Shown here: positions 3,584-23,923 of the stretch, piece after piece | How the letters are laid out: the number at the start of each line of letters is the position of its first letter | Position numbering within the stretch: the stretch's first letter is position 1 | Source of the DNA: a virus | Direction: 5' to 3' (one strand) | IMG/VR virus record: IMGVR_UViG_3300045950_000156 | Span: 1-23,923 of that record | Length of the DNA: 23,923 bases | Made by a program: the position numbers and the translations under genes | The notes under the pieces: model-generated | The model's input: the letters and a program-made list of their open reading frames with translations, nothing else | What the model was told of the DNA's origin: nothing | The model's database searches: none

Positions 3584-3588
3584 GCACG

Positions 3589-4377: not shown

Positions 4378-4395
4378 ATCCTTGGAGAAATTTCC

Positions 4396-7710: not shown

Positions 7711-7713
7711 ACC

Positions 7714-8064: not shown

Positions 8065-8088
8065 ATCTCCATCCCTTCGCAACCACCT

Positions 8089-8111
8089 GAACCCGCCCAC
8101 GAGGCGGGTTC
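8089..8111 (+). terminator. Hairpin terminator after tail genes
   Basis: The perfect inverted repeat GAACCCGCC / GGCGGGTTC (9 bp, 5-base loop) lies 25 bases after the DUF2793-like stop. The T-tract is weak (GTCGTATTT), so read-through into the lysis genes is likely. It separates the tail operon from the lysis cassette. Confidence 0.7.
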
Positions 8112-8130
8112 GTCGTATTTGGAGACGCCC

Positions 8131-9722: not shown

Positions 9723-9747
9723 ACTCATAGTCCGTGGCACTATGGTC
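9723..9747 (+). promoter_or_regulatory. C-box operator of the restriction-modification controller
   Basis: Two half-palindromes, ACTCATAGT (9723-9731) and ACTATGGTC (9739-9747), flank the centre CCGTGGC. This matches the known C-box layout of controller proteins, where two 'ACT..AGT' boxes flank a GTCCGTGG-like core. The right box is degenerate. The controller ATG follows only 22 bases later without a Shine-Dalgarno sequence, so its transcript is probably leaderless or nearly so, as in other C-protein genes. The controller is expected to bind here and both activate and later repress its own gene and the endonuclease gene. Confidence 0.78.
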
Positions 9748-9769
9748 ATCAATCTGTTCCAATGTCCGA

Positions 9770-10003
9770 ATGCCCAAGCATCATGACGACTTCCTACATT
9801 GGTTCGGCGCCCGAGTCCGCGGACTTCGGCAGCGGAAGAGCCTTTCGCAAGAAGAACTCGCGCAGCTCGCAGGAATCGACCGCACCTATATCGGGGGGGT
9901 CGAGCGCGGCGAGCGTAACCTGAGCCTATTGAACGTCAAGAGGCTTGCCGATGCATTGGGCGTCAATGCAAAGGACCTCTTCGACGATGACTTCCAACTC
10001 TGA
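9770..10003 (+). CDS. Restriction-modification controller (C) protein, XRE family
   Basis: A 77-residue single-domain helix-turn-helix protein. Its recognition region (SLSQEELAQLAGIDRTYIGG, then VERGERNLSLLNVKRLADAL) is nearly the textbook C-protein sequence. Such proteins delay endonuclease production after the system enters a new host so that methylation comes first. I place the start at ATG 9770 rather than at an in-frame GTG (9734), because that GTG lies inside the operator. The endonuclease gene begins within its last codons, and a C-box lies just upstream. The acidic C-terminus (DLFDDDFQL) is also usual for the family. Confidence 0.92.
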   Translation: MPKHHDDFLHWFGARVRGLRQRKSLSQEELAQLAGIDRTYIGGVERGERNLSLLNVKRLADALGVNAKDLFDDDFQL

Positions 10004-11162
10004 CTACCTCGCCCGTCTGCTTCAGCGTCTCAGTGCCTTCAGAGCGGAGGCTGGGCTCACCCCCGCTCAAGTCGAGGAGCGTCTGATTCTCGGCCCCGGA
10101 TGGGTTGGTGCAATTGAGGCTGGGACCATTCACCCAAGCCTTGATGTCATCGCTTCGATGCTCTCGGTATACGGGAAGAGTTTGAGCGATCTTGCCCAAG
10201 GTGCGACGGGGAGCGTTCCTCATATCAACCGCTCTATCGCCGGTGAAGCGGTGGGCGCAGACTTGGATATTCACTTCGCCTACGCCCAGCACGACGCGAC
10301 GTACAGGCTGCCGAATGCCTCCTTGGAGCAGTTTACGGAAGTGGTGCTTACGCTTCGGAATGGTCTTGCTCAACTGAGCAGCCAGAACATGAGCGACGAG
10401 CAAGAGAAGGCTATCAAGACGGAGAGCGTAGCGATCGCCTTCTTGAAGGCTGTTGAGCTTTGGCCGACGGCTAACCCCTCCGATCTATGGTGGTTCGTGA
10501 TTTATCGTGCCTACTGTGACCAGTACAACCACCCCTCTGAGCATTCGCGACTCGATTTCACGCAGAGCTGGAAGCGAACCGGGGGCTGGGCACTGGAGCG
10601 CATTCTTGAAAGGCATTATGGGCCGGCGCTCGCGGCACACGGTATCAACCTTGTAATTGCCGATGGTGAGCGCAAAGTTCGGTTGCTGGCAGGTTTGGAC
10701 GTTGGGCACAGGCTGGAAGCGGACAAGATGGACGTGCTTTTAACAGTCGGAGCCGGTGCCAATGAAAAGCTCATCGGGGTTGTTCACGTCAAGGCGAGCT
10801 TTGCTGAAAGACGGACGGATGACGTGCCCATGAGCCAGGCGCTCGTGGCCGCTGGGTACATTTCTCCTCTTTGGACGATGGACTGCAAGAGCACGCCATC
10901 CGCGCGTCCTGTGAATCGTGGTGAGCTGGGGGCCGTCTTTAGTGGGCAGGGAACGGATGGCCGAAGTGCGAAGCGCAAAGACATCGAGGATGATGGATTT
11001 TTCTCCGCGTGCTTCTCGTACAACAAGAACACCGCTCCCACTCCCGCGGGCTACCCAGCGCGGGGGCGTGTTTATGTTTGCGACTTCTCGAATCCTAACG
11101 ACGCCTTCACAGACTTCGTTGTAGCCGAACGCCAGCGGATCAGAGCAAAGCTTGGGATTTGA
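9987..11162 (+). CDS. Type II restriction endonuclease, BsaWI/CCGG-type with N-terminal HTH
   Basis: I choose ATG 9987 (AAGGA about 10 bases upstream), giving 391 residues and a 17-base overlap with the controller gene. The N-terminal 70 residues form a second XRE-like HTH (GLTPAQVEERLILGPGWVGA and following). The C-terminal half looks like the BsaWI family of CCGG-core enzymes. It has the strand pair around D249 (DKMDVLLTVG) and HVKASFAERRTDD, with K269 as the likely PD-(D/E)xK lysine followed by a conserved-looking Arg/Asp run. The family call is from motif memory. The position, C gene upstream and methyltransferase convergent downstream, strongly supports a restriction role. The actual site cannot be read from sequence; a CCGG core is an inference. 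Confidence 0.8.
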   Translation: MTSNSDYLARLLQRLSAFRAEAGLTPAQVEERLILGPGWVGAIEAGTIHPSLDVIASMLSVYGKSLSDLAQGATGSVPHINRSIAGEAVGADLDIHFAYAQHDATYRLPNASLEQFTEVVLTLRNGLAQLSSQNMSDEQEKAIKTESVAIAFLKAVELWPTANPSDLWWFVIYRAYCDQYNHPSEHSRLDFTQSWKRTGGWALERILERHYGPALAAHGINLVIADGERKVRLLAGLDVGHRLEADKMDVLLTVGAGANEKLIGVVHVKASFAERRTDDVPMSQALVAAGYISPLWTMDCKSTPSARPVNRGELGAVFSGQGTDGRSAKRKDIEDDGFFSACFSYNKNTAPTPAGYPARGRVYVCDFSNPNDAFTDFVVAERQRIRAKLGI

Positions 11163-12051
11163 CGCCTTCAGTCGCTGCCAGTCGTTCATTCGATGCAGCG
11201 ACTTGCTCCGGCTCAATCTCGAAACCGACATAGGAACAGCCCAAGCGCAAAGCGGCGATGCCGGTTGTCCCGGAGCCTGAGAACGGGTCCAGGACAACAA
11301 CGTCTTCTCCAGCTAGTCCATAGGCGTCGATGCACCGGAACGGCAGTTCCTCCGGAAATCTGGAGAAGTGCTTCAGTCCGTCGATCTTCTCGTTGGCGAA
11401 CTCCCAAACGCTTTTCACGGGCGGCGCTACTCGAAAATTGTGTCGTTCGCCCTTTGCCAAGAGGTAGATTGGCTCATGGTAGCGATGGGGGCGACGGCAG
11501 CGGCCTTCCGGCATGGGGTTCTTCTTGCGCCAAATCACCTCGCCGCGGTACAGATAGCCACCATCACATAGCGCAAGGACAAGCCGGTACGGTAGCGCCA
11601 ACAGATTTCCATACTGCAACCAAGCCGTCTCCTTCTCGATGAAGGCTTTGCGCTTCATGCGCGGCTTGGTATAGGCGGAGTTGTGGGCAGGAAGTCCACT
11701 TTTGTCTGCTCCCAAGGTGCTGAACTGCCGGTCATCTTCTCGCCAGTTCACCGGCGTGTTGTAGGCGTCTCCGATATTGATCCAGATAACACCACCCGGC
11801 TTGAGCTTCGGTAGCAAGCCCATGAACACGTCTGTGAGAAATCTGACGTAGTCGCGCGGGTCTTCTTCCACGCCAATCCCCTTCGAGTGCCGCTGACCCC
11901 AATAGGGCGGACTTGTCACAACAACGTCAATCGATTCATCCGGCAACTGGGGGATCAGCTCAAGGCAATCGCCTTCGTGTGCTCTGTTTAGTTGAAAGGG
12001 GCCTAGCATGCGGTCATCTCGAAAAATGGAACTTATAGTCATCATAGCCAT
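11140..12051 (-). CDS. Type II DNA methyltransferase, beta class (probable N4-cytosine)
   Basis: A 303-residue methyltransferase. The catalytic motif TSPPYW (residues 46-51) comes first, and the S-adenosylmethionine motif DPFSGSGTT (residues 255-263) near the C-terminus; this order defines the beta class. SPPYW is the usual form for N4-cytosine methylation, although some N6-adenine enzymes share it. It would protect the host from the endonuclease encoded on the opposite strand, and the two genes overlap tail to tail by 23 bases. The start is uncertain: ATGs at 12051, 12045, 12042 and 12009 are all in frame and none has a strong ribosome site. It lies 22 bases downstream of the DUF262 gene on the same strand, so it may also be read from that operon. 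Confidence 0.9.
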   Translation of the reverse strand: MAMMTISSIFRDDRMLGPFQLNRAHEGDCLELIPQLPDESIDVVVTSPPYWGQRHSKGIGVEEDPRDYVRFLTDVFMGLLPKLKPGGVIWINIGDAYNTPVNWREDDRQFSTLGADKSGLPAHNSAYTKPRMKRKAFIEKETAWLQYGNLLALPYRLVLALCDGGYLYRGEVIWRKKNPMPEGRCRRPHRYHEPIYLLAKGERHNFRVAPPVKSVWEFANEKIDGLKHFSRFPEELPFRCIDAYGLAGEDVVVLDPFSGSGTTGIAALRLGCSYVGFEIEPEQVAASNERLAATEGVKSQALL

Positions 12052-12073
12052 TTAGCGCTCTTGGAGCAACGAC

Positions 12074-13846
12074 TCAGGCCTTGATGGTCGTAAAGGTCTC
12101 TCGTTCGTTTGTAGGGACGAGAGTGTTGTCGTCGGCAATAGCTAGCCCCCAATGGCTTCGAAGTACATCAACGAGGCGCCTTTGCCGCTCGGCCAGCATC
12201 GCCGGTGTCCACTTTTCTTCCGAGCGCACTTCCTGCGTCAGGACGAAGGGTGACGCTGTGCCCTTGCCCTTGAAGTACACGTTCTTCTTCTTGGCGAAGT
12301 CGTAGTTGCTGGCAGACGAGTTCTTCTTCCTATCCAGCGGAACCAGATTGGCCAAACGGTGCGTCCAGCCATTGCGCTCGTCTTCATCCGGGAACCACTT
12401 GATCCAGTCCGAACCGTCGGGCGGGGTTTGCGGCAGAACGTGCTCCAGAGACACGGCATCTTGGAGCTGCACGCCGGGGGCGCGCACCAAGGACTCAAGG
12501 CGCAAGACCAGGGCCATCCGTGCCTTGGGCAGATCGTCGTAAACGTCGCCATCGAGTGCCGCGACGAACTTGCGCTTTTGCGCGTCAGTCAGTGTCAGCG
12601 TGGTGAGCGCGGCCAGATCCCCCTTGAAGGTCTCCGGCTCGATTTCCTTGGTCAGCGCAGCGTAGGTTTCGATGCGCTCGTTGATACCCACCTTGGTGAT
12701 CAGCAGGAAATAGGTCAGGCGTTCCAGTGACTTGAAAAACTCGGCGAGCAATTTGGGCTGCTGCCGGAAGCGCTTGAAATAGACCAGTGCCGGGGGCACC
12801 CAGTCCTTGAAGTCCACGCGGTTGAGCCAGGACAGGTATTCGTTGATCGTCTCGGCGTGCTCGGTGGCTTCGAAGTTGGCATCGCGCACGAAGTCCCACA
12901 CTTCGGCATAGGGTTTGATGACCTTGTCGACGAGGTCGATGGGGGCCTTGTACTCGGTGACGTGCTCCTGGAATTCCTTGACCAGCGTGGCCCGCTGCTT
13001 CTGCTTGGCGTAGATGGTGCGGATATGGCCGAACAGGTCGCCGAAAGCGTCGCGGCCAAGCTGGCTTTCGATCTCGCTCCACTTCTTCGAATAGGCGCGC
13101 GCCTTGTCCTCCCCGCCGATGCGACGGATCGAACCGAGCACTTCCGCCTTAATGATGTCGATGGGTGCCAGATCGAGCCCACGATTGTTCAGTACCGAGA
13201 AGATGCGGTAGGCCGCTTCGAGGTCGGGTGTGGAAATGACGACCAGGGAGCAGTCGTTCGCGAGGAATTTCCACAGGGCATTCAAGTCGTCAGGCGACAG
13301 GGCCTTGGCCTTTTCGAGCAGCAGCGTGGCGTTTTCGCGGTAACGCAGACGGCTGTCTTTCAGCTTGTCCGTACTGGCGACTAACTGTGCGATGCCACCC
13401 GGCTCCTGGATGTACTGACGGAAGAACGTCGCATCTTCCTCGCGGGCGGTGAATCGGTAGCCGGTGGCCTTGCCCAGCATCTCGTCCCCCTCTTCGTAGA
13501 GGAAAGGGGTCACGCTTTTGACGCCTGGTGGGTAGTTGGCCGCCTCCCACGCTGCGCGCAGGGCCGCAAACAGGATCGTGAGCGTGGTCAGTCGCTGCTG
13601 GCCATCAACGACCATCGCCTTGGGGTCGCGGTCGTTCTTGATAAGAACGATGCTGCCCAAGAAGTATTGGCTTGTGGCCCCGTTGGCTCGGGCATCCTGC
13701 ATAGCGGAGACCAGATCATCAAACAACTCTCCCGCTTGCTCGGTTGTCCAGGCGTAGGGGCGCTGGTAGTCCGGAATCTCGAACTGGTAGCTGCCTTCGA
13801 AGATCTCCCGGATCAGCTTGTCGTGGGCTTCAAGTGTCTTGGCCAT
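12074..13846 (-). CDS. DUF262/DUF1524 protein, GmrSD-like type IV restriction family
   Basis: A 590-residue protein with both GmrSD halves fused. The N-terminal DUF262 domain has IPDYQRPYAW (residues 24-33) and DGQQRLTTL (81-89), the ParB-like nucleotide-binding signature. The C-terminal DUF1524 domain has the HNH-like nuclease motif LEHVLPQ (H469), followed by RLANLVPL (N500) and KKNSSASNYDF. In GmrSD this pairing is a nucleotide-dependent endonuclease against phage DNA with modified cytosines; many relatives have other or unknown targets. Key residues appear intact. A ribosome site (TAGGAAAG) overlaps the stop of the upstream WYL gene, 15 bases away, so the two are coupled. Substrate modification is not predictable here. 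Confidence 0.88.
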   Translation of the reverse strand: MAKTLEAHDKLIREIFEGSYQFEIPDYQRPYAWTTEQAGELFDDLVSAMQDARANGATSQYFLGSIVLIKNDRDPKAMVVDGQQRLTTLTILFAALRAAWEAANYPPGVKSVTPFLYEEGDEMLGKATGYRFTAREEDATFFRQYIQEPGGIAQLVASTDKLKDSRLRYRENATLLLEKAKALSPDDLNALWKFLANDCSLVVISTPDLEAAYRIFSVLNNRGLDLAPIDIIKAEVLGSIRRIGGEDKARAYSKKWSEIESQLGRDAFGDLFGHIRTIYAKQKQRATLVKEFQEHVTEYKAPIDLVDKVIKPYAEVWDFVRDANFEATEHAETINEYLSWLNRVDFKDWVPPALVYFKRFRQQPKLLAEFFKSLERLTYFLLITKVGINERIETYAALTKEIEPETFKGDLAALTTLTLTDAQKRKFVAALDGDVYDDLPKARMALVLRLESLVRAPGVQLQDAVSLEHVLPQTPPDGSDWIKWFPDEDERNGWTHRLANLVPLDRKKNSSASNYDFAKKKNVYFKGKGTASPFVLTQEVRSEEKWTPAMLAERQRRLVDVLRSHWGLAIADDNTLVPTNERETFTTIKA

Positions 13847-13861
13847 TGCGCTTGTTCTTTC

Positions 13862-14773
13862 CTATCGTTTCTTGGGGCTGCTCGGAGCTTGATACCCCGG
13901 CGCGAGCTTTGCGTTCTCAACGCCGTACAGCGCCAGCGGATCGCTGAGCCATAGGCGGTACTGTTCTTCCTTGAGGCGGTGGTCGGGCGAGCAGTCCACG
14001 CTCCAGCGCAGCAGCATGTAGCCCGCGACGGCGGCGCGAACGCGCATCCGGATCGAGCCGTCGGTCATCCCGTAGTCCATCCTGATGATCTCGGGGTGTT
14101 CAAGGCGCGGGTGCGGCACCAACTCCAGCTCGACGATGCGCGTCCACTGGATGTCGTTTTCCGGTCGCTCAAAGGCCTGTGGCTCCTCGTCGAGCAGCGT
14201 CGGCGCTTCGATACGGGTGACGACGAAGTCCCGAAACTCTCCGCTCTTGCGATCAAAGGCCCGGACGTGCCAGCGCAGGCCGGTATCCACCAGCGCGAAG
14301 GGAACGATGACGCGCTCGGATTCACCGCTGCTCATCGAGTGGTAGCGAATGGCGACGGGGCGCTTGGCGTGGATCGCCCGGCAGACCGGAGCCAGCACAT
14401 CCATCCTGGGGTTGCTCAGGGCGGTGGGCGACTCGCACGGCAGCAGCGGCTGCAAGGACTGATTCGGGCCGTTCACACCATCGCCGAAGCCCAGCGCCAG
14501 CGCCGACAGCACGCGCTGCGGGGCGTGGTTGAACAGCGGGGAGAACGCCTGCCCGATCCGGTAGATCTTGTGGCTACCGTCAAAGGTGATGTTCTGCGGC
14601 GCGATTTCCCGGTACAGCGCCAAGTCGCGCGTCGCCCCTGCCGGCGCCACGCCGAAGCGCTCAATCAGATCTGGGCGACCGATCTCACCGAAGAAGTAGA
14701 GCCGGAAGTCGATGTAGGCCAGCCGCTCGCGCTGGGCGTGGCTCAAGCTCTCGACGCGCTGGGGTTGAGTCAC
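13862..14773 (-). CDS. WYL-domain transcriptional regulator (BrxR/CapW-like)
   Basis: I prefer the GTG start at 14773, with GAGGAG 6 bases upstream, over an in-frame TTG at 14791; this gives 303 residues. There is an N-terminal winged helix (to about residue 75, with ERLAYIDFRLYFFGEIGRPD). The WYL domain is at about residues 125-200 (RPVAIRYHSMSSGESERVIV, then GLRWHVRAFDRKSGEFRDF). A C-terminal WCX-like extension follows. This architecture and length match BrxR/CapW regulators, which repress defence operons and are thought to sense a phage- or damage-related ligand through WYL. It is the first gene of the operon with the DUF262 protein. A perfect inverted repeat about 80 bases upstream is its likely operator. 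Confidence 0.88.
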   Translation of the reverse strand: MTQPQRVESLSHAQRERLAYIDFRLYFFGEIGRPDLIERFGVAPAGATRDLALYREIAPQNITFDGSHKIYRIGQAFSPLFNHAPQRVLSALALGFGDGVNGPNQSLQPLLPCESPTALSNPRMDVLAPVCRAIHAKRPVAIRYHSMSSGESERVIVPFALVDTGLRWHVRAFDRKSGEFRDFVVTRIEAPTLLDEEPQAFERPENDIQWTRIVELELVPHPRLEHPEIIRMDYGMTDGSIRMRVRAAVAGYMLLRWSVDCSPDHRLKEEQYRLWLSDPLALYGVENAKLAPGYQAPSSPKKR

Positions 14774-14850
14774 CGAAGGCTCCTCATCCAAGACGGACGA
14801 CCGAAAGACTGAGATTGGTTTTATGTTTGTCCATTGCCAGGCAGTTCACA

Positions 14851-14977: not shown

Positions 14978-15119
14978 GACAGGGGAGAGCCAAGGGATGG
15001 TGATCAGCGTAGAATCATCGCCGAACGGTGCTCATTGGAACTCATTGCAGCCGCGATAGGCCGCGTGGCGTCGCCTCAGCACCACCAAGAACACTTCCAA
15101 AGCAGTCCAAATTGTCCCG

Positions 15120-15187
15120 GGAAGCATAACCTTACCGCTTAGGCAAGGTTATGCTTCCAAACGGGGTTGGCAAGAATATGCTTCCAA
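15120..15187. repeat. Three copies of a 17-bp repeat next to tniQ, possible transposon-end sites
   Basis: The motif GGCAAGGTTATGCTTCC lies at 15142-15158 and, with two changes, as GGCAAGAATATGCTTCC at 15169-15185, 27 bases apart in the same direction. An inverted copy with one change, GGAAGCATAACCTTACC, lies at 15120-15136, making a near-perfect palindrome with the first copy. Both direct copies extend to 21 bases including flanking T and AA. TnsB-type transposases bind several short repeats at transposon ends, so this may be an end. It could instead be an operator. I see no matching copies to the right of tnsAB. Confidence 0.55.
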
Positions 15188-15192
15188 GCCTT

Positions 15193-15229
15193 AGGCCGGA
15201 CCAGCTAGCGCTGATCCGGCCTTTGTTTT
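15193..15229 (+). terminator. Hairpin terminator between repeats and tniQ
   Basis: AGGCCGGA pairs with TCCGGCCT, and inside it CAGC with GCTG across a 4-base loop; the T-tract TTTGTTTT follows on the + strand. The T-tract shows it stops rightward transcription, facing the tniQ stop 6 bases further on. It could also act weakly for tniQ. No + strand gene precedes it, so it hints at an untranslated rightward transcript or protects the tns operon from antisense reading. Confidence 0.7.
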
Positions 15230-15234
15230 ACGTA

Positions 15235-16572
15235 TTACACCTTTTGTAGCGCTTTCAGGTAGGCTTGGAACAGATGGGGTAGGGCCAAGGACATCCCCTC
15301 CTTTCGCAGCATGCGATTGACCCGCCGTCGCGAGGGATACTCCTTGTTGGCCCTTATCTGCCCCACGACCTCCACAACCCGGCTACTCTGCCGATTCTGA
15401 TGTTCCCTGGACCTTGCCCTGACGGCTGCCTTGAACCGTTTGGTCAGCCTGGCATATTGCTCAGGAAACCAGTAGCGCAGGTAGCTTCGTGTCAGGCCTA
15501 GGCTGGCGGCGATTTCGGATACCGGCAAGGCGTCGTTTGCATCCAGCAGGGCAATCAGATGATCCTGGATTTTCTGGCGATGCTCGGGAGACACCCTTGG
15601 GCAAGCGTTCCGGTCCTTCAGTCGGCCCGGCAGAAGCCTCAGCGCGGTTGCCTTTGGCCAAGATGCTCCGAACACCTCAGTAGGCATCACATTCAACCCA
15701 TAGCAGAGCGGCAGGAGGTGGGTGATGCTGGGCCGCTCGTCCTTTCTCAGCCAGCCGTTCAGCCCGCGATCATGGAATCCCAGCGCTTTGCAGAACGCCG
15801 CCCTGTTGCCTTCCGCCACCGTCGAAACCTGCTCTTCGACGAAACGGCGGAATCGGTCGAAACAGATCGACAATCCAGCATCCGACTGATGCACCACCAT
15901 GTCGGTTACCGCCTTGGACACCCAGGACTGGAATTCCGTCAATGCCGCAGAAGGCCGGATGCCGGTGAGCGGTTTCCGGCAATGGCTACAGATGCCCAGA
16001 TCGGGATAGCGGGGCAGGTAGGGTTGCGTTTTGCTGCAATGAGGACAGCGATCTTCGAGCAGGCAAGCGTGCTCAGGGCAGGCCCGATACGGTTCGATGG
16101 ACCAGACCAGCGGGAAGCTGGTTGATTCGCCCAGAAGACGTTGCCGGTACAGGCAAACGGGGCACCATCTGGGATGGCGTGCCAGCAGCCCCTGTCCGTT
16201 GTGCGGAAAGGCCTCTTTCCATGGAAGCATGGTCAGACAGTCGAGGCCTGGCCGTCCGGTGAGATCTTCCATTGCAGAGACGAACAGCTCGGCATACTGG
16301 CCTATCCCATTCACGGTGCCGGCAAGACTGCGATAGAAAGTCGAATAGTCCAGCTTCCCGATCGCAGGCATGGCCTTGCCGAAAACCTTCCCAACCAGAT
16401 GGCGCGGACTGACTGCGTGCGCCCGGCTGGTTCGGACAATGAGCGACAAGAGTCCTTCCTGCCGCGGCGTCCCGATTCCAGCCGGAGGCAGCGAGAACAG
16501 GACGCTGCGGGGCGGAACATGCACGGCTGCCTGAGAATCCTCATCGAGCGAAAATTCCCAAGGGGCGTTCAT
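15235..16572 (-). CDS. tniQ: TniQ/TnsD-like target-selection protein
   Basis: The ATG at 16572 overlaps the TnsC stop (ATGA), giving 445 residues; the open frame continues upstream through tnsC but that is a shadow. The N-terminal TniQ domain (residues 25-160, with EGLLSLIVRTSRAHAVSP) is followed by zinc-binding pairs: CPVC (137-140), CPEH/C (165-170), CPHC (176-179) and CSHC (195-198). The C-terminal half has helix-turn-helix-like segments, LPVSEIAASLGLTRSYLRYWF (350-370, quoted in part) and a second at about 395-435. This is TnsD-like: such proteins read a target site and recruit TnsC. No attachment site is identifiable here. Shorter CRISPR-type TniQ proteins usually lack the long C-terminal DNA-binding part, so direct DNA recognition is more likely. 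Confidence 0.9.
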   Translation of the reverse strand: MNAPWEFSLDEDSQAAVHVPPRSVLFSLPPAGIGTPRQEGLLSLIVRTSRAHAVSPRHLVGKVFGKAMPAIGKLDYSTFYRSLAGTVNGIGQYAELFVSAMEDLTGRPGLDCLTMLPWKEAFPHNGQGLLARHPRWCPVCLYRQRLLGESTSFPLVWSIEPYRACPEHACLLEDRCPHCSKTQPYLPRYPDLGICSHCRKPLTGIRPSAALTEFQSWVSKAVTDMVVHQSDAGLSICFDRFRRFVEEQVSTVAEGNRAAFCKALGFHDRGLNGWLRKDERPSITHLLPLCYGLNVMPTEVFGASWPKATALRLLPGRLKDRNACPRVSPEHRQKIQDHLIALLDANDALPVSEIAASLGLTRSYLRYWFPEQYARLTKRFKAAVRARSREHQNRQSSRVVEVVGQIRANKEYPSRRRVNRMLRKEGMSLALPHLFQAYLKALQKV

Positions 16573-17684
16573 GGAAGCACCATTCCGACCGGATCGCGCT
16601 TCGGATTGCGCGTGCCAGGACGACGGGGCTTCTTCATAGCGCCGGGTTCGTCCCGTGCCAGCAGGACGCCGTTCTTCAGGAGATCGAGCAGCCGGTCGTC
16701 CCCGACATCGGCCAGCTTTACCTCGCCGAGACAGGCTTCCTCGATGATGGTCATGAGCCCGCGGTTTTTCAGGGCGAAGCGCTCGGCGAAGACCGCATCG
16801 ATGAGAGGCGCTCCCTCGCGCAGGGCGTACTCGAGACAGCGCGCCAGCCAGTCCTTCAGGATGCCGACGCAGCCTGCCGACTTCTGATAGAAATATTCGG
16901 CATCGCAGTCCAACCGGGTCGGAACATGTTTCGACAACCGCTCCTCGAAGAACTTGAGGATCTTGCGGAAGTTCTTGCGATCCTCGCCCGATCTCAGGTC
17001 GTAGCGGGGGTAGTTCACCACCTGACTGCGCCGGGTGAGCTGGCCGCTCTGCTCCAGGATATCGAGCAGGCGGTAGGTGCCGATGAGCAATATGGTGACC
17101 CCGGTTTCGATGGTGAGGGATTTCAGGCACTCGAACTGGCACTCCAGGCGCTGCCTGCCTCCCACCAGAAGCAGATGCTGCGCCTCGTCGATGACGAGCA
17201 GCCTGGTCTTGCGCAGGCGCAGATATTCCTCGACCGCGCGGCGCAGCGCGTCTGCGGTCGACTGCTCCAATCCGTTGGCTTCGAAGCCATGGTCGGGCAG
17301 AAGCGAGCCCTGCCTGGGCAGCATCAGCTTGCGATCGACCAGCGGTTCGCCCTGGCCATGGAGGAGGCGTATGTGGAAGTCCTTCCAGCTGAACCCGGCG
17401 CCGTTCGGCGGTACCGCATTGATCGTCACCACCGGCACGAAATCCGGCTCCAGGGCTATGCGTTCCTCGTAGTACAGGAGCAGCCGATTGCGGGCGGCCC
17501 TGGCCAGCGTGCTTTTGCCCACACCGGTAGGGCCGGTGAAGATGATGATCTGGGGCGACGAAGACGCCCCGAGGGCGGCTCCAAGCTTGCTGAAGGTGTC
17601 CTTGGCGATCGGGTGCGAAAAGACGCAACCCTGAAAGTCAGCCAGCGCCTTGGTAACCGGATCGTGAGTTGTCTGCGGCATCAT
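16569..17684 (-). CDS. tnsC: TnsC-like AAA+ transposition regulator ATPase
   Basis: A 371-residue AAA+ protein. Walker A is GPTGVGKST (residues 51-59). Walker B is LLVIDEAQH (162-170). A sensor-1-like strand is ILLIGTYR (199-205), and TRRS near residue 218 is a candidate arginine finger. TnsC/TniB proteins form ATP-dependent filaments on DNA, linking the target selector to the transposase. The start ATG overlaps the TnsAB stop (ATGATG with TGA inside), and the end overlaps TniQ, so all three are translated as a coupled operon. The Lys/Arg/Pro-rich tail (KKPRRPGTRNPKRDP) may be the contact region with TnsA/TnsB. Length is shorter than Tn7 TnsC (555 aa), nearer to TniB-like and CAST forms. Confidence 0.92.
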   Translation of the reverse strand: MMPQTTHDPVTKALADFQGCVFSHPIAKDTFSKLGAALGASSSPQIIIFTGPTGVGKSTLARAARNRLLLYYEERIALEPDFVPVVTINAVPPNGAGFSWKDFHIRLLHGQGEPLVDRKLMLPRQGSLLPDHGFEANGLEQSTADALRRAVEEYLRLRKTRLLVIDEAQHLLLVGGRQRLECQFECLKSLTIETGVTILLIGTYRLLDILEQSGQLTRRSQVVNYPRYDLRSGEDRKNFRKILKFFEERLSKHVPTRLDCDAEYFYQKSAGCVGILKDWLARCLEYALREGAPLIDAVFAERFALKNRGLMTIIEEACLGEVKLADVGDDRLLDLLKNGVLLARDEPGAMKKPRRPGTRNPKRDPVGMVLP

Positions 17685-20323
17685 TTCAGCACCTCGAAGA
17701 CTTCGAGGCTGACCGGGCCCGACCAGGGATCCTCCGCGGGGCCCGCCGGCTCCTGTGCAGGGGGCGCCGGCAATGCCGGGGCCTGGGGTTCGTGGGCGCG
17801 CAGCTCGGCGTCGCGGCGCTGCTGCCGGAGAACGGCCTCCGTTTTGCGAGTCTGGCTGACGTAGGTGGCGATATCGCTGGCATTGACGCCACGCCGGACG
17901 TCGGCCAGATGATGCAGCGCCCGGATTTCCTGACTGATGGCGGCGATTTCACGCTCGGTGCGGCGCTCGAAAAGAGACTGATGCTCGGAACGGCACAGCA
18001 CCCATTCGCCGCTGACCAGCGCAAAGGCCCTGGAAACGTCGAACGGATCGTAGACCAGAGGAACCTTTGAACGGACCACCTTGGGCTCGCGGAAGATCGG
18101 ATGCCAGTAGTGGATGCCCTTGATCTTGATGCCACTGCCGGCACGCACCAGTGCCTTGCCGGCCGGAGTCGTGGGCATGCAGAGGCGATTGAAGTCCTCC
18201 GTATACGGAATCAGCACATGTTCGCGCGTACCGGCCAGACGCAATCCACGGATCATTGCGTCCCTGGGCGACATGCCCAATGTGGGATGTTGGCGGTTGG
18301 CGTATACCGTATCGACAAATGCCTCGAAGGCGTCCGTCAGGGCCGGCAATGTCCAGACGGCGAGTGTGCGCGGATCGTGGCTCGGCGACATGCTGCGCGG
18401 CCGCTGCAGAGCCTGGCTGTTGCCGGCAAGGTTGTGGATGAACGCCTGGTTGTTCACCCCGAAGAAGCGTTCGACGACCGAGCCGAAGCGCCCCTTGGCG
18501 GCCGGGCGCGATTTCTTGTTGCACCGCAGCCGCGCCAGCAGCGCCTCGAAGTAGAGGCTCTCGAAGTCGCTGCCCTGGTCCACCACGATCGTCTTCGGTA
18601 TCCGCCCGTGGCGGCGGACGGCGTTGCGGATCACCGCCATGCAGCTTCGGTAGCTGGGCGGGTCGAAGCTGAGGAAAAAGGCCAGAATCAGACGCGTGTA
18701 GGCATCGATGAGAATGGTCAGCCAGGGCCTGCCCAGGTTGGCGCCCGTGCGGCTGTCCACCAGTTCCACGTCCAACTCGGTGTGGTCGATATGGCCGATC
18801 TCGAAAGGACGCTCACCGTGCCGCGGCGTGGATTGATTAATACGCCACTGGAACTCGCTGACGCCGTAGGCGGCACGTCTGCCCTGGCGGGCAAGCACGA
18901 CCTCTTCTTCTTTCCGCCGCCGGATCTCGGCCCGGAAGGTCTTGTCGGAAGGCGGCGGCAGGCCGCGCTTGATGCAGAGGTTGCGCGCCATGCCCCAGGC
19001 CACCGTGATCTTCGGCTGCGAAGCATTCAGCACCTCGGCGTCGATGACCTCGTTCATCGCTTCGATTACGCCGGCGCTGATCTTCCTGGTGCGGTTACCG
19101 CGGGCGCTGATCCTGGGTAGCAGGCCGACAAAGCGATTGCCGTAGAGAAGTTCGCCCTCGACGGCACGCTTGCGCAGGTAGCGCAATGTTCTGGGCGGTA
19201 CGGCAACATCGCCGGGCGAGGCATCGAGGCGCCTGATGCGCTCGACGGCCTGTTTAAGGTCTACGGGGGAGGCTTTCCTCAGGGCTTCCGCAGCCAGGGC
19301 ATTGCGCTGGTTCTCATCTTCGGTGAGGCCGGTGATCGCGCCCTTTGCGACGAGGGATCGGAACAAATCCAGATCCAGGTTCGTGATGGCACGATTCCCG
19401 TCTTCAAGAAAGACATCCGTGGAGCCGACGTTGAGAATGCGCCAGGGATTGCCGTCCCAAATAACTTGGGTTCCGGCCTGCATGAGGACCGTATGCAGGG
19501 GAACGAGTGCGCACCCGCTGCTGCCGCGCCTTTGCCCCGCATAGATCTCGGCGCTGAGGGCATCGTGGCAGACGTTGGTGAAGCCGGGCTCCGACAGCAG
19601 TTCGTGCTCCAGGTCGACGAATAGGCGTTTGAAGGCGATCAGCCTGAATACCGTGTCGGCCGGGATGTCGCCGCCTTCCAGCAGCCGCTGCAGAGGCACC
19701 CACCGCTCCGTCGCGAAGAGGCCAGCGACAGCGGCAGCCTCTTCGTCGGTGGGCGACTGACAGTCGGCGCGGAGGTAATCGGACAGAAACTCGAGATTCC
19801 GCACCAGGATCCAGTTGACACCCTTGTCACACACCACCTTGAAGCCGAGGCCATACTGCGCCGCGAACGCCTCTCCCGGCGGGCAGCGCCAGCCGCCGTT
19901 GCCATCCGGCACGAAACGTTCGCTGCCGCTCCGGTGGGATTCCTGCAGGTCCTTCTCCGGCTTGCATTCCACCCATCCCATCCACCGGGTCTGGATGAGG
20001 AAAAAGTCCGGCGTGGAAAGATGGGAGATGTTTTTCCCGCTTCCGTTCCGGTAGGTGAGCTTCACCTGGGAAGGCTGGTCGTAGAACTCGGCCGTGTCCG
20101 GGTCGTGTTCCCACTGATAGATCCAGGGCAACTCGCCCTTGTGGCTTTCGGCCTGGATGACGCAGCCCATCTTCAGGCTGGCGAATCGGGTGGCGACGTT
20201 GTGGGTGCCGCCGCCCACCCTGCGTACTGGTTCGGATGTGCGGACGTGCTCGACGACCTTGCGGCCGATAAGTGGAATATCCTGCTGAATGAAAAATTGC
20301 AGCAGCTGTTCTTTGTTAAGCAT
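17681..20323 (-). CDS. tnsAB: TnsA-TnsB fusion transposase
   Basis: An 880-residue fusion. Residues 40-200 match the TnsA endonuclease: E64 region (ESHKGELPWIYQWEHDPD), D106 in STPDFFLI, and K121 in WVECKPEKD. TnsA cuts the 5' ends. After a linker and helix-turn-helix-like region (about 330-480), the DDE integrase domain begins. It has D513 (GHIDHTELDVELV), D582 (VVDQGSDF) and E618 (SVVERFFG), i.e. DX35E spacing between the last two. The C-terminal part includes NRQHPTLGMSPRDAM and ends in a Pro/Ala-rich tail. All catalytic residues look intact, predicting cut-and-paste transposition. The start has an AAGGAG site 6 bases upstream. Natural TnsA-TnsB fusions occur in some Tn7-like and type I-B CAST elements. 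Confidence 0.93.
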   Translation of the reverse strand: MLNKEQLLQFFIQQDIPLIGRKVVEHVRTSEPVRRVGGGTHNVATRFASLKMGCVIQAESHKGELPWIYQWEHDPDTAEFYDQPSQVKLTYRNGSGKNISHLSTPDFFLIQTRWMGWVECKPEKDLQESHRSGSERFVPDGNGGWRCPPGEAFAAQYGLGFKVVCDKGVNWILVRNLEFLSDYLRADCQSPTDEEAAAVAGLFATERWVPLQRLLEGGDIPADTVFRLIAFKRLFVDLEHELLSEPGFTNVCHDALSAEIYAGQRRGSSGCALVPLHTVLMQAGTQVIWDGNPWRILNVGSTDVFLEDGNRAITNLDLDLFRSLVAKGAITGLTEDENQRNALAAEALRKASPVDLKQAVERIRRLDASPGDVAVPPRTLRYLRKRAVEGELLYGNRFVGLLPRISARGNRTRKISAGVIEAMNEVIDAEVLNASQPKITVAWGMARNLCIKRGLPPPSDKTFRAEIRRRKEEEVVLARQGRRAAYGVSEFQWRINQSTPRHGERPFEIGHIDHTELDVELVDSRTGANLGRPWLTILIDAYTRLILAFFLSFDPPSYRSCMAVIRNAVRRHGRIPKTIVVDQGSDFESLYFEALLARLRCNKKSRPAAKGRFGSVVERFFGVNNQAFIHNLAGNSQALQRPRSMSPSHDPRTLAVWTLPALTDAFEAFVDTVYANRQHPTLGMSPRDAMIRGLRLAGTREHVLIPYTEDFNRLCMPTTPAGKALVRAGSGIKIKGIHYWHPIFREPKVVRSKVPLVYDPFDVSRAFALVSGEWVLCRSEHQSLFERRTEREIAAISQEIRALHHLADVRRGVNASDIATYVSQTRKTEAVLRQQRRDAELRAHEPQAPALPAPPAQEPAGPAEDPWSGPVSLEVFEVLK

Positions 20324-20464
20324 GAGAATCTCCTTGCCCTATTCCGTCCTATAGCGATGCCATCTTTGATCAAGACGGATGCTCGCCTGACGACGGAGTC
20401 ATTCAGAAATTGCGAGTGGATGGCCCGAAACGGCCATAGGAGACCAACCAGGTGCGAAAAACTC

Positions 20465-20493
20465 TTGACACCCGGGGATACGACGCGGAGAAT
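20465..20493 (+). promoter_or_regulatory. Promoter-like sequence, rightward, upstream of tnsAB
   Basis: TTGACA (20465-20470) and GAGAAT (20488-20493) with an ideal 17-base spacer form a sigma-70-like promoter pointing away from tnsAB. The inverted repeat at 20494-20521 begins at the next base, where transcription would start, and a strong hairpin follows. No + strand gene is downstream for more than 400 bases, so the product would be a short RNA of about 60 bases. The -10 is imperfect, so chance occurrence cannot be excluded. Confidence 0.4.
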
Positions 20494-20521
20494 TTGCATG
20501 TCGGTCAGCACTGACATGCAA
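20494..20521. promoter_or_regulatory. 28-bp inverted repeat, possible operator or transposase site
   Basis: TTGCATGTC and GACATGCAA are perfectly complementary 9-base arms around a 10-base spacer that itself contains part of a smaller inverted repeat (GTCAG/CTGAC). It lies about 170 bases upstream of tnsAB. Its length and two-turn geometry fit a dimeric DNA-binding protein, for example the small HTH protein encoded nearby, or a transposon-end site. No second copy is visible in the window. Confidence 0.5.
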
Positions 20522-20524
20522 TCC

Positions 20525-20556
20525 AAACGGCCTGGGGTTACCGCCTCAGGCCGTTT
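20525..20556. terminator. Strong hairpin, probable (bidirectional) terminator
   Basis: AAACGGCCTG pairs perfectly with CAGGCCGTTT, with further G-C and G-T pairs inside, leaving a 6-base loop. T-tracts are weak on both sides (CGTTTGCGTCTT rightward, CCGTTTGGATT leftward). It would end transcription arriving from the small HTH gene on the - strand, and could end a short + strand RNA from the adjacent promoter-like sequence. Confidence 0.6.
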
Positions 20557-20585
20557 GCGTCTTGGTCTCGTGAATCAGCGCATAT

Positions 20586-20597
20586 CTAGGTTGTCAT
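20586..20597 (-). pseudogene. Abrupt gene start (three codons then stop): possible insertion scar
   Basis: A perfect AGGAGG (20605-20610 on the complementary strand) stands 7 bases before an ATG at 20597, 41 bases after the stop of the small HTH gene and on the same strand. The frame reads Met-Thr-Thr and then TAG. A strong start signal with no gene suggests that a second gene of this operon was cut off near here, perhaps by insertion of the transposition module. Alternatively it is a short leader peptide or a chance match. Confidence 0.4.
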
Positions 20598-20638: not shown

Positions 20639-20881
20639 TCAGATTTTTCCTGCGCCGGCCTGCGTACTTAGCCACGCAGCAACGTCGATAGTCAGGGCAA
20701 ACAACCCCCGCCTTCCTGGTAACGAAAAAACATTGACGCCAAGCTCGCCGCGCTGTTTGCTGCGATGAAATGCGGCGTAGCTTTTAAATCCCAAAGCCGA
20801 GTACAGATCTCTGCCACCTAGCGTTGGGCCATAGCGATCAAGCAACTGCCTGGACAGCGCTTGTGGGGTGGTTGAGCCCAT
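20639..20881 (-). CDS. Small winged-helix DNA-binding protein, AlpA/PrtN-like
   Basis: I chose ATG 20881 (AAAGG 7 bases upstream) over a TTG at 20908, giving 80 residues. The sequence LLDRYGPTLGGRDLYSALGF is followed by a basic segment (HRSKQRGEL), a short hairpin (VFSLPGRRGLFAL) and DVAAWLS. This pattern resembles MerR/AlpA-type winged helices and pyocin activator PrtN-like proteins, which control excision or prophage and toxin genes. No effector domain is present. It is divergent from the unknown gene to the right. Partial symmetry in the shared promoter suggests that it regulates both. The family call is tentative. Confidence 0.6.
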   Translation of the reverse strand: MGSTTPQALSRQLLDRYGPTLGGRDLYSALGFKSYAAFHRSKQRGELGVNVFSLPGRRGLFALTIDVAAWLSTQAGAGKI

Positions 20882-20901
20882 ATGCGAACCTTTAGCAAAA
20901 T

Positions 20902-20932
20902 TGAGCAAGATCGATTTGGGCTCATCTTGACA
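20902..20932. promoter_or_regulatory. Divergent promoter region with overlapping inverted repeats
   Basis: CAAGAT (20906-20911) and ATCTTG (20924-20929) form one inverted repeat; TGAGC (20902-20906) and GCTCA (20920-20924) form a second that overlaps it. TTGACA at 20927-20932 could be a -35 for the rightward gene, but the -10 at suitable spacing (TCTAGG) is poor. This 108-base gap between divergent genes is the natural place for the small HTH protein to act. Confidence 0.4.
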
Positions 20933-20989
20933 ATGCGGAATCGGGGAATCTAGGCTTCTTTAACCTTGATTCAAGTGACACCAAAAGCG

Positions 20990-21841
20990 ATGGGCAAACC
21001 GCGCGGAGGGCAGCGAAAACATTGGGCGGAAGAAGCGCGTATATGGGCTTGGTATGCCGAGATCAGGAGGCGCTGCAACTGGTCCGACTATGCGCTGGAC
21101 TTGGAGTTTGCCTGGACTGAGGAAGGACGGGGTTCTCGCTCTACCACCCAGCGACCACGGACATTCGAGGGGATTCGCAAGTTGGCGCGAGCGCCAAGAG
21201 GTCATGAGGGGCGCTGGCGGGGAATGGCGGAGCTTGTGGCCGCCGTTGAGCGAAATCGACTGTTCAAAGGCACTCAGGCGCTATTCAAGGCAGAAATATG
21301 GGATCTGTTCCAGGATATGGCTCCGCCCCCCGCAACTGTCCAGAAGCGAATTGATCGCCTCCTCAAGGCCAATCGGCTGATGCGCGTGCCAGCGGAAAAG
21401 GCTTTGAATAGCAGCGAGGCGTTGGTCCGCAAACACGGACTAGCGTCCGTATATGACCGTTGCCTGCTTCTTAGTCTTGGACAGATGGACCGGTTCTCCG
21501 CGGTGGCGTTGGTCTGGTCTCTGTATCTGCAGACAGAGCCCGCCCATAATGCGCGGTTCAGGGCTGTGGTCGAAGGGATCGCCGATCGCTTGCTTGACCA
21601 TTTCTTCTTTGATTTGTTGCCTGACCGGCATCTCGATTTTTACGACAAAGCAATCGGGGCTCTACTCCGATCCCGGTTGGATTTATCCTCCATGGGAATA
21701 AGCGGATATGGATACATTGAGACAGTTGGAACCTGGCTTGTGGTTCCAGAGCATTTGATTGAGAAGCTGACAGAGGGGCACTTGATGCTGGATCCTTTGG
21801 AAGGAGTTCCAGGAGCGCCGTTACAACGGAAGTCGCAGTGA
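20990..21841 (+). CDS. Protein of unknown function (about 283 aa)
   Basis: I do not recognise this protein. The best start is ATG 20990 (MGKPRGGQRKHWAEEARIW), with in-frame GTG 20975 and TTG 20966 as alternatives; none has a strong ribosome site. It is basic and helical at the N-terminus, with many Trp and Arg residues (IWAWYAEIRRRCNWSDYALD). The middle is helical (GTQALFKAEIWDLFQDM). The C-terminal part is more acidic and aromatic (DHFFFDLLPDRHLDFYDKA). There is no signal peptide, membrane segment or enzyme motif. It is divergent from the small HTH gene and its codon use is less GC-biased than that of the phosphoesterases downstream, which suggests separate acquisition. Some mobile elements carry such HTH-plus-unknown pairs. 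Confidence 0.65.
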   Translation: MGKPRGGQRKHWAEEARIWAWYAEIRRRCNWSDYALDLEFAWTEEGRGSRSTTQRPRTFEGIRKLARAPRGHEGRWRGMAELVAAVERNRLFKGTQALFKAEIWDLFQDMAPPPATVQKRIDRLLKANRLMRVPAEKALNSSEALVRKHGLASVYDRCLLLSLGQMDRFSAVALVWSLYLQTEPAHNARFRAVVEGIADRLLDHFFFDLLPDRHLDFYDKAIGALLRSRLDLSSMGISGYGYIETVGTWLVVPEHLIEKLTEGHLMLDPLEGVPGAPLQRKSQ

Positions 21842-21858
21842 TTTTGGATGAGGTGGCG

Positions 21859-21879
21859 TTTCCGTGTTTTTCGCGGAAA
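21859..21879. terminator. Hairpin between convergent genes
   Basis: TTTCCG and CGGAAA form a 6-bp stem with a T-rich 9-base loop, between the convergent stops of the unknown gene (21841) and the first phosphoesterase (21887). T-tracts after the stem are absent, so efficiency is doubtful, but its position suggests a shared terminator. Confidence 0.4.
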
Positions 21880-21886
21880 GAGCACA

Positions 21887-22681
21887 TCACAACTTTACTA
21901 CCAATTCTGGCTGAAACTCACCCACCATCTCCCCCGGCACATACCCCCGCGGATTACTCACCACCCGCGTACCCTCGATCTCATAGTCCGTCGCCAGATG
22001 CGTATGCCCATGCACCCATAACCGTACTTGGTTTTCGCCCATCAGGCGCTCCAGGTTCGAAGCGTAGGCCGCGTCCAGCAGCCATGAAGGCTCCTGATAG
22101 CTGAGGCTTCTCGCGCTCGGCGCATGATGGGTCACCACCACAGTCGGCCCATCGTGGTGATTGGCGAGCTCTCCTTCCAGCCAGGCGCGCGAGACCAAAT
22201 GCCGCTCCCGCGACATGGCCGGTGTAAATGGAATCAGCTTTGTCTTTCCGTAGCCGCCGTCCCGGCGTCCCGCCATGATGTGCCGGAAGTCGCCCATCTT
22301 CATCCCCGCCTCTTCCATCGCCCGGACGTTCCGCTCCTCTTCCTCGAAGAGCGCAAAGTCCGTCCATAACGTGCAGCCGAGGAAACGCACCCCGTCGATC
22401 ACCGCGGCGTCGTTCTCCAACACATGCACGTGCGTGCCCCGGCACTTCGTCCTCGCTGCGGCGAGGAGCTCCGGCATCAACCGCTGCCCGTAATACTCGT
22501 GGTTGCCGAGGACGTAGATCACCGGCCTCCGAATGGCGGCGAGCGCCCAGGCGATGCCCCGCAGCCCGACGCCGATGTCGCCGGCGAGAACCGTGACATC
22601 GGCGTCGATGGCGTTGAGGTCGACTTCCCGCGGCCAGCGGGCGAACTCGAGGTGCAGGTCGTTCAGGATGTGCAGCCTCAC
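21887..22681 (-). CDS. Metallophosphoesterase (calcineurin-like), copy 1
   Basis: Starts at GTG 22681, one base after the stop of the second phosphoesterase, with GGAGG just upstream. The 264-residue protein contains the full metal-binding set: D8 and H10 (NDLHLEF), D35 (LAGDIG), N60 and H61 (LGNHEYYG), the TVVVTHHAPS histidines, and H226 with H228 in VHGHTHLATD. Such enzymes hydrolyse phosphoester bonds in nucleotides, nucleic acids or proteins with two metals; the substrate cannot be read from sequence. It is a tandem paralogue of the upstream gene, sharing motif spacing and end phrases (NPRGY). The two are almost certainly co-transcribed with the AAA+ gene. Confidence 0.88.
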   Translation of the reverse strand: MRLHILNDLHLEFARWPREVDLNAIDADVTVLAGDIGVGLRGIAWALAAIRRPVIYVLGNHEYYGQRLMPELLAAARTKCRGTHVHVLENDAAVIDGVRFLGCTLWTDFALFEEEERNVRAMEEAGMKMGDFRHIMAGRRDGGYGKTKLIPFTPAMSRERHLVSRAWLEGELANHHDGPTVVVTHHAPSARSLSYQEPSWLLDAAYASNLERLMGENQVRLWVHGHTHLATDYEIEGTRVVSNPRGYVPGEMVGEFQPELVVKL

Positions 22682-22682
22682 C

Positions 22683-23447
22683 CTATACCTCCACCATGAG
22701 TTCCGGATCCCAGCCCGTCGCTTCCAGCGACCGGCCGTCCCGCGCATAGCCGCGCGGGTTGCACACCACCCGGCAGTCTCCGATCCGGTGATCGGCGAAG
22801 GCGTGGGTGTGCCCGTGCAGCCACAGGTCGGCCCGGGCCACCAAGAGGTCGAGGTTGCTGGCGAAGGCCGCCGTCAGGAGATCGTCCTGCCACCAGGGTG
22901 CGATGCTGGCCAGGCTCGGCGCGTGGTGGGTCACCACCACGGTCTTGCCGGCGAATGGCTCGGCCAGCTTTCCCTCCAGCCAGGCGCGGCTTGTCCGGTG
23001 CAGCTCCACCGTCTGCTCGGGCAGCAGATAGCCGCCCGAGCCCGTGCGGATCGTCCTGAAGTCGTTCATCGAGCGCGCAGCTTGCCGGCGCGCGGCGAAC
23101 GCCATCTCGGGCCCGAACAGCTCGAAGTCGGTCCACAGGGTGCCGCCGAGGAACCTCACGCCCCCGACGACCACTTCGTCGTTGTCCAGGAAGTCGATGC
23201 CCAGATCGAGCGCCGCCTTGCGCATCTGCGCCGCCAGGCCCCGCAGGTGGGCGAAGTAGAACTCGTGATTGCCGGCGACATAGACGATCCGTTTGCCCGC
23301 GAACGCCGTCCTGGCCCACTCCAGGCCATGGGTGTGCCGGCCGATGTCGCCGGCCAGCACGACGAGGTCCGCTGCCGCCACCGTGGAGGGTGTAGGCATC
23401 CAGTTGCTCATCTCGAGGTGCAGGTCGCTTACCGCGTAGATCCTCAT
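22683..23447 (-). CDS. Metallophosphoesterase (calcineurin-like), copy 2
   Basis: I place the start at ATG 23447 (MRIYAVSDLHLEM) with GGAAGG close upstream, 254 residues, over an in-frame ATG at 23471. The catalytic set is complete: D8 and H10, D34 (LAGDIG), N60 and H61 (AGNHEFYF), VVTHHAPS, and the HGHTH motif followed by AFAD. It is clearly paralogous to the copy downstream: the motif positions are the same and so is the phrase NPRGYA/V. It differs in loops and in a higher GC content. Two similar phosphoesterases in one operon behind an AAA+ ATPase suggest division of labour or a heterodimer. Substrate unknown. Confidence 0.88.
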   Translation of the reverse strand: MRIYAVSDLHLEMSNWMPTPSTVAAADLVVLAGDIGRHTHGLEWARTAFAGKRIVYVAGNHEFYFAHLRGLAAQMRKAALDLGIDFLDNDEVVVGGVRFLGGTLWTDFELFGPEMAFAARRQAARSMNDFRTIRTGSGGYLLPEQTVELHRTSRAWLEGKLAEPFAGKTVVVTHHAPSLASIAPWWQDDLLTAAFASNLDLLVARADLWLHGHTHAFADHRIGDCRVVCNPRGYARDGRSLEATGWDPELMVEV

Positions 23448-23500
23448 GATCCTTCCTTTCCGTTCATTCATGCCACTTCAGCTACCTTGCTTGTTTCCGT

Positions 23501-23923
23501 TCAAATGAACCCCATGCGCCGGTCGTCCCGGCGCGTTCCCTCCGGGCCCGCTTCCTCGAATCGGAAGTCCCGGCCCGCCAAGCGGTCCCGCGCCATGCGG
23601 CCGATGGCCGTCTGCAGCACCAGGCCCAACTCGCGCGGGCTGGCCACCGCCCGCTCCAGCAACACCGGCGGCGGCTCGACCGGCAGCTGCTCCGCCAGCC
23701 CGTAAGCCTCGATCAGCCGCCGGTACTGCTGGCGGCCGATCTGGCGCAGCTCGCACGCCGTCGGCCGACGCACGGTGAAGATCGCCAGGCGGCTCTGGAT
23801 GGGGTCCGGCAGGCGCTCGAGGGCGTTGGCCGTCGCCACCCAGGAGAACCAGCTGGCGTCGATCGGCAGCTCCGCGAACTCGTCCCGGAAGCGCCGCGCG
23901 CTCTCCGCCTCCAGCAGGGCGTA
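23501..23923 (-). CDS. AAA+ ATPase, Lon-like, C-terminal part only (runs off the window)
   Basis: The frame is open to the right edge, so only the last 140 residues are seen. SWVATANALERLPDPIQSRL is the sensor-1/arginine-finger strand of Lon-type AAA+ modules (compare 'FIATANxxxxIPxPLxDR'). The helical lid follows, with the sensor-2-like phrase SPRELGLVLQTAIGRMARD. The usual Lon protease domain with a catalytic Ser-Lys is absent, because the protein ends soon after the lid (MGFI). It is therefore an ATPase without an obvious protease. It is first of the operon with the two phosphoesterases (53-base gap). The N-terminal half is outside the window and would decide its role. Confidence 0.75.
   Translation of the reverse strand, partial: YALLEAESARRFRDEFAELPIDASWFSWVATANALERLPDPIQSRLAIFTVRRPTACELRQIGRQQYRRLIEAYGLAEQLPVEPPPVLLERAVASPRELGLVLQTAIGRMARDRLAGRDFRFEEAGPEGTRRDDRRMGFI

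Follow-up and report, generated by a model that had tools for sequence, protein, structure and literature searches.

A fused-TnsAB Tn7-like transposon, very probably homing to tRNA-type genes, with a putative antisense RNA opposite its tnsAB leader

Background

Where does the Tn7-like element carried by IMG/VR virus record IMGVR_UViG_3300045950_000156 insert, and which of its proteins chooses the site? The whole record of 23,923 nucleotides (nt) was analysed and is called the window here. It has phage tail and lysis genes at 1–9675 and a transposon that runs from 15113 to past 23923, with its left end in the window and its other end beyond. An initial annotation had described a core of fused TnsA-TnsB, TnsC and one long TniQ without clustered regularly interspaced short palindromic repeats (CRISPR), and had left the target open. 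We find that the element is very probably a fused-TnsAB Tn7-like transposon homing to tRNA-type genes, and the part of it that is visible contains no CRISPR. The proteins, catalytic residues, ends, spacing, tRNA proximity, one relative's duplication and the promoter–terminator module reported below were all read from sequence.

Results

The core genes and the end next to them comprise the following features:

15113–15119, plus strand: left (tRNA-proximal) terminus TGTCCCG, aligned to the termini of the related copies L003, L002, G012, G107, G069, G036, G185, G209, G448 and G484
15120–15136 (plus), 15142–15158 (minus) and 15169–15185 (minus): three TnsB-like end sites (GGAAGCATAACCTTRCC), from a motif scan
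15191–15223, minus strand: terminator hairpin 3' of tniQ, an inverted repeat kept in L002 and L003
15235–16572, minus strand: tniQ/tnsD, 445 amino acids (aa), target selector by its Pfam TniQ and TnsD 8v32 matches
16569–17684, minus strand: tnsC, 371 aa, AAA+ ATPase by Pfam and solved-structure matches
17681–20323, minus strand: tnsAB, 880 aa, fused TnsA endonuclease and TnsB transposase by Pfam, structure match and residue conservation

Coordinates and Pfam domains bear out the three overlapping leftward genes of the initial annotation, which form an intact, operon-like tnsAB-tnsC-tniQ set. TnsAB carries the Pfam TnsA-N, Mu I-gamma, rve and Mu-C domains (rve and TnsA-N slightly under the curated cut-offs), and its alignment to TnsAB from the solved I-B2 TnsABCD transpososome 9bw1 covers almost the entire protein (E = 2e-209), matches that agree with its description as a fused, Tn7-like transposase. 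The catalytic residues are intact, as had been claimed, and not mutated: TnsA E59, D106, E119 and K121 are kept in at least 21 of 22 aligned homologs and the TnsB DDE triad D513, D582 and E618 in 22 of 22. TnsC belongs to Pfam AAA_22/TniB, has I-B2 TnsC as its best solved match (E = 1e-53), and retains both ATPase motifs, Walker A (GPTGVGKST) and Walker B (LLVIDEAQ) being read directly. The sole catalytic-residue exception among the 22 homologs is the TnsA part of Caballeronia sp. M1242 (L084), with H, D and V for D, E and K; this TnsA may be inactive, or the alignment may be wrong.

TniQ matches Pfam TniQ (E = 2e-13) and, as its best solved match, TnsD 8v32 (E = 5e-35, residues 18–425); its identity is 88% in L002 and 82% in L003. 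Because the 8v32 match is near full length and includes the C-terminal half, the single TniQ is, by alignment, a TnsD-type selector. This supports the choice of target by a protein that the initial annotation had proposed, and the design is not unusual, because TniQ is itself the TnsD-type selector. The four Cys pairs described in TniQ are three CxxC motifs and one CxxH (C136/C139, C164/H167, C175/C178, C194/C197). The best solved matches of TnsAB, TnsC and TniQ are all proteins of the Peltigera cyanobiont I-B2 TnsABCD complex.

The target was read from the element's relatives. Similarity between the window, L002 and L003 spans tnsAB through tniQ to the three GGAAGCATAACCTTRCC repeats, after which L002 and L003 have tRNA-Ala(CGC). 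An RNA gene with its 3' end toward the element stands at the tniQ-side end in 11 of the 11 homologs whose contig reaches there: tRNA-Ala(CGC) in six (G001, G002, G030, G069, G036, G094), tRNA-Ser(TGA) in two (G448, G484), transfer-messenger RNA (tmRNA) in two (G185, G209) and tRNA-Val(CAC) in one (G107). The distance from the CCA to the terminus (TGT) is 25–30 nt in ten of them (G001, G002, G107, G069, G036, G094, G185, G209, G448, G484), where insertion has left the RNA gene intact; in G030 tRNA-Ala lies at the end in the same orientation and the exact terminus is less clear. Judged from these junctions, the element targets tRNA-type genes at their 3' end, its closest relatives using tRNA-Ala(CGC), and the question of the target is no longer as open as the initial annotation had left it. 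All of these RNA genes share a T-arm GTTCGA and the CCA, and we hypothesise that TniQ reads this T-arm/CCA part. The tmRNA cases (L041, L042) are related elements 30 nt behind the tmRNA gene ssrA. In the tRNA-Ser cases (L077, L078), a second set of TnsB-like sites lies ~170–270 nt inside the tRNA-Ser-side end and is perhaps a nested end.

The end-site arrangement of the window recurs in L002, L003, G012 and G107, and near-identical TnsB-like sites (GGAACCATAAnnTTGCCG) lie upstream of Nostoc TnsAB (L081), cyanobacterial elements keeping almost the same site. The copy in G107 is complete, with a far end TGTCCCGGGAACCATAATCTTGCC bearing four sites, a tRNA-side end, TGT...ACA termini and ACTCA on both sides, a 5-bp duplication in a relative of the window element. 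Inside its ends there is no second TniQ, no repeat array and no recognisable cas gene. Neither a CRISPR array nor a cas gene occurs in the window, where the element is incomplete; the CRISPR-free description, including a single TniQ, thus holds for this complete relative and for the part of the window element that is seen. G107 (L032) carries two elements in tandem at tRNA-Val with ACTCA between them, an older one at 7395–9545 and a newer one from 9549 onward. The older has a truncated TniQ and a tRNA-side end identical to that of the newer, and because this identical end adjoins the same ACTCA, two insertions at the same base are indicated. Target-site duplications in copies other than G107, and the far end in L003, were sought and not found. 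At the tRNA-Ala locus shared by relatives of G002, three genomes have an element end (G001, G002, G012) and several have host DNA behind tRNA-Ala instead. The end in G012 (L043, 15274–15340) is a tRNA-side end that stands alone behind tRNA-Ala and has no transposase genes with it.

A scan of 85,000 species genomes returned two close relatives, L002 (TnsAB 91%) and L003 (79%), both betaproteobacterial metagenome-assembled genomes and one of the two named Rhodocyclaceae. Among 299 Rhodocyclaceae genomes, five had close copies (64–91%) and eight more distant ones; an order-level search added three at 36–38%, a class-level draw gave no copy except in L003's own genome, and a TnsAB scan of viral contigs gave no relative. 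The TnsB phylogeny suggested by the initial annotation was run as a TnsAB tree with a midpoint root. It places the window in a betaproteobacterial clade of 11 rows (Shimodaira–Hasegawa-like approximate likelihood-ratio test, SH-aLRT, 98) adjoining cyanobacterial sequences; another betaproteobacterial group branches further out. By its sequence, the element falls in the fused-TnsAB branch of Tn7-like elements, also the source of the transposases of CRISPR-associated transposons (CASTs) of types I-B2 and I-D. It is a CRISPR-free betaproteobacterial (Rhodocyclaceae-type) new member of the known tRNA-homing fused-TnsAB Tn7-like branch.

The region upstream of tnsAB holds a regulatory module and cargo:

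20465–20566, plus strand: putative antisense RNA with two hairpins, from the promoter–terminator rule, folding and covariation
20465–20470 (TTGACA) and 20488–20493 (GAGAAT), plus strand: antisense promoter with 17 nt between its boxes
~20524–20556, plus strand: antisense intrinsic terminator
20586–20597, minus strand: in the tnsAB leader, mini open reading frame (ORF) ATGACAACCTAG (M-T-T-stop) preceded by a GGAGG ribosome-binding site
20639–20908, minus strand: small protein, 89 aa, in the slot of a probable DNA-binding regulator upstream of tnsAB
20966–21841, plus strand: uncharacterised protein, 291 aa, divergent from tnsAB
21887–22747 and 22683–23471, minus strand: two calcineurin-like phosphoesterases (Pfam Metallophos), cargo

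The antisense module was defined by a rule requiring a promoter with 16–18-nt spacing and a terminator with a T-run within ~100 nt. It is present in 11 of 11 clade members (window, G001, G002, G107, G031, G238, G030, G214, G448, G484, G515) and in none of 945 random stretches or 1020 shuffles (0/1965 together), nor on the sense strand (0/17); because the first members had served to tune the rule, these counts are a comparison with controls and not a formal p-value. Outer-group copies lack the module (0/6), and it was not found in four cyanobacterial copies or the Caballeronia copy. The promoters of the module are strong, and the predicted RNAs are 69–88 nt long and fold into two hairpins in most members, with 9 of 20 consensus pairs changed on both sides among six sequences. 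Six close relatives share a common order upstream of tnsAB, namely a small DNA-binding protein, a ribosome-binding site with a tiny ORF, the hairpins and the opposite-strand promoter. The purine-rich site and a 2–3-codon ORF occur in the same place in L002, L003, G031, G238 and G214; the tiny ORF has a start codon in five of the six close relatives, and the corresponding position in G107 has none. At the place of the 89-aa protein, which had no match in Pfam, NCBIfam, PHROG or PADLOC, there are related short proteins in G001, G031 and G107 and, by sequence inspection, an AlpA-like helix-turn-helix protein in G002 and G238 and a Cro/gp16-like protein in G214.

The RNA's role is most likely antisense repression of tnsAB. 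Short hairpin RNAs against the leader of a controlled gene are known from IS10/Tn10 (RNA-OUT) and plasmid R1 (CopA), the latter also with a leader peptide. The present module is like them in placing a hairpin RNA opposite a gene leader and unlike them in having no homology to either and a role that is putative. A search of one paper library for antisense RNA in the context of Tn7-like elements and TnsB returned only a general CRISPR review with passing mentions, and the conserved small antisense RNA is apparently undescribed, the new part here. More evenly balanced is the wider claim that the whole tRNA-homing clade is under a dedicated 70–90-nt antisense RNA against the tnsAB leader, together with the mini-ORF and the small DNA-binding protein. 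Such control by an antisense RNA would be the first to be described in any Tn7-like element, and it might also act as an incompatibility system specific to each copy, because the stems diverge while the fold stays.

Left of the transposon, two further features bear on how this copy came to lie where it does:

15082–15112, plus strand: CCA end of the target tRNA-Ala and attachment arm (AGAACACTTCCAAAGCAGTCC), by match to the DNA behind tRNA-Ala(CGC)
9734–14791: type II restriction–modification set (controller, BsaWI-like restriction endonuclease, N6/N4 methyltransferase), GmrSD-type nuclease and WYL regulator, in the interval from the prophage lysis genes to the transposon end

The stretch 15082–15112 matches the DNA behind tRNA-Ala(CGC) in G012 and L003 bar a few bases, and it ends in CAAAT, the 5 bp expected to be duplicated at the target site. 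The attachment arm is 20 nt long and integrase-type; elsewhere it follows tRNA-Ala or tRNA-Leu, and a similar arm precedes a tyrosine integrase gene in five examined loci. An Rfam scan of the window gave no match and no tRNA remnant at the junction; the arm had no match in viral contigs, nor the left flank in phages and plasmids. The DNA left of the arm ends in a ~165-bp stretch common to G161 and G133. At 15080–15107, island DNA meets the CCA and arm in a junction that resembles an attP-type or tandem-integration junction. Because only the CCA end and the arm remain, the same tRNA may have been the site of a second integration event or of an excision. On balance, we favour a history in which an integrative element occupied tRNA-Ala, the transposon inserted into its attachment arm, and a later integration (the left prophage/island) or excision replaced the tRNA.

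Everything left of 15080 (the WYL, GmrSD, restriction–modification and prophage genes) is accordingly read as flank, because the element extends rightward from its left end at 15113, and 20639–23923 as cargo inside the element; the phosphoesterases are placed inside because the tRNA-side end is at 15113. A reading of the restriction–modification, GmrSD and WYL genes left of tniQ as cargo was dropped; L002 and L003 have a tRNA at the tniQ-side end. The boundaries first proposed for the element, 15119–20597, come within 6 bp of the inferred 15113 on the left and fail on the right, where the element passes the window end. G001, G031 and G214 likewise encode homologs of the 291-aa protein divergently from tnsAB (four elements with the window). 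This protein had no family (Pfam) or PDB match and could be an accessory or second selector. This ~290-aa family (window; L089, L087, L088) also stands alone in a few other genomes. Cargo elsewhere includes NsnABC-type defence genes and TIR, RmrA and NACHT proteins in G107 and a MukB/Wadjet-like set in L003.

Discussion

Several observations weigh against homing to tRNA-type genes as set out here. The far end of the window's element lies outside the stretch, the duplication was seen in one copy only (G107), no empty site with both flanks was obtained, and the AlphaFold model of TniQ (three-row alignment; predicted local distance difference test 52) was too weak for a fold search. The window also has only the CCA end and arm and no tRNA body, so this copy's target is taken from its relatives. 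That missing tRNA, the viral classification of the record and the presence of phage tail and lysis genes 6 kb away would fit a domesticated, immobile core serving the neighbouring prophage or defence island. We consider this highly unlikely, given that homologs stand at different tRNA-type genes with matching termini and that cargo varies between copies. A degraded I-B2 or I-D CAST that lost Cascade and kept its tRNA homing is also improbable, if slightly less so: TnsAB, TnsC and TniQ are nearest the I-B2 set among solved structures, but the betaproteobacterial rows make up a separate clade (support 98) next to the cyanobacterial ones, neither the complete G107 element nor the window has a repeat array or recognisable cas gene, and TniQ is TnsD-like over its full length. 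An ancestor that homed to tRNA genes without CRISPR is the simpler account.

The small RNA opposite the tnsAB leader invites other readings as well. Its strict association with this transposase clade could mean that it guides TniQ to the target. This idea was rejected and has very little probability left, since in the three copies tested the RNA matched the target tRNA, on either strand, no better than shuffled controls, and the stems vary freely while the target stays tRNA-Ala. The hairpins could instead be an attenuator on the sense strand or a DNA site bound by the small regulator, with no separate RNA. This deserves more weight, though we still think it unlikely: the inverted repeat reads alike on both strands and a GGAGG mini-ORF lies just ahead of the hairpins, but the 16–18-nt-spaced promoter and T-run occur antisense in 11 of 11 copies and in sense in 0 of 17.

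For the tRNA-homing transposon, we infer activity, tRNA-gene binding by TniQ and RNA function as follows. TniQ/TnsD would bind the 3' half of the target RNA gene, predicted to be tRNA-Ala(CGC) in this subclade, and would recruit TnsC. TnsAB on the TGT...ACA ends would excise the element and insert it 25–30 bp behind the CCA end. Insertion would leave the tniQ-side end beside the tRNA, create a 5-bp duplication and keep the tRNA intact, and most cargo is expected on the stretch from tnsAB to the far end. The antisense RNA across the tnsAB leader, together with the small DNA-binding protein, probably keeps tnsAB expression low.

Homing of this type is known in the branch: CyCAST homes 30–33 nt behind tRNA-Leu with only TnsAB, TnsC and TnsD, the PmcCAST target plasmid bears a tRNA-Val gene (PMC10293859), and tRNA-targeting TnsD has been described in a review (PMC11406308). 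The element resembles PmcCAST (Tn7744, a type I-B2 CAST) in its fused TnsAB, aligned over ~840 residues, its TnsC and TnsD-type selector, its cut-and-paste residues and a tRNA gene as attachment site. Unlike PmcCAST, it is betaproteobacterial, shows no Cascade, CRISPR array or second short TniQ, and has cargo between tnsAB and the far end as well as the antisense RNA module. With the type I-D CyCAST and McCAST it shares the transposase branch and, very probably, TnsD homing behind a tRNA, whereas no RNA-guided pathway is seen here and the targets are tRNA-Ala, tRNA-Val, tRNA-Ser and tmRNA. Like Tn7 TnsABC+D at glmS, it would combine TnsD-directed insertion behind a conserved gene with TGT...ACA ends and a 5-bp duplication, the last as seen in the relative G107; it differs in its tRNA-type target, its fused TnsA-TnsB and the placement of the tniQ-side end beside the target.

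What emerges is a compact insertion system of three proteins, CRISPR-free and betaproteobacterial, whose ends and target are defined and which stands near the stock that yielded the I-B2 and I-D CASTs. The reading of different tRNA-type genes (Ala, Val, Ser, tmRNA) by TnsD becomes directly testable by swaps. If true, control by the conserved antisense RNA would add a level of transposition regulation that is new for this group.

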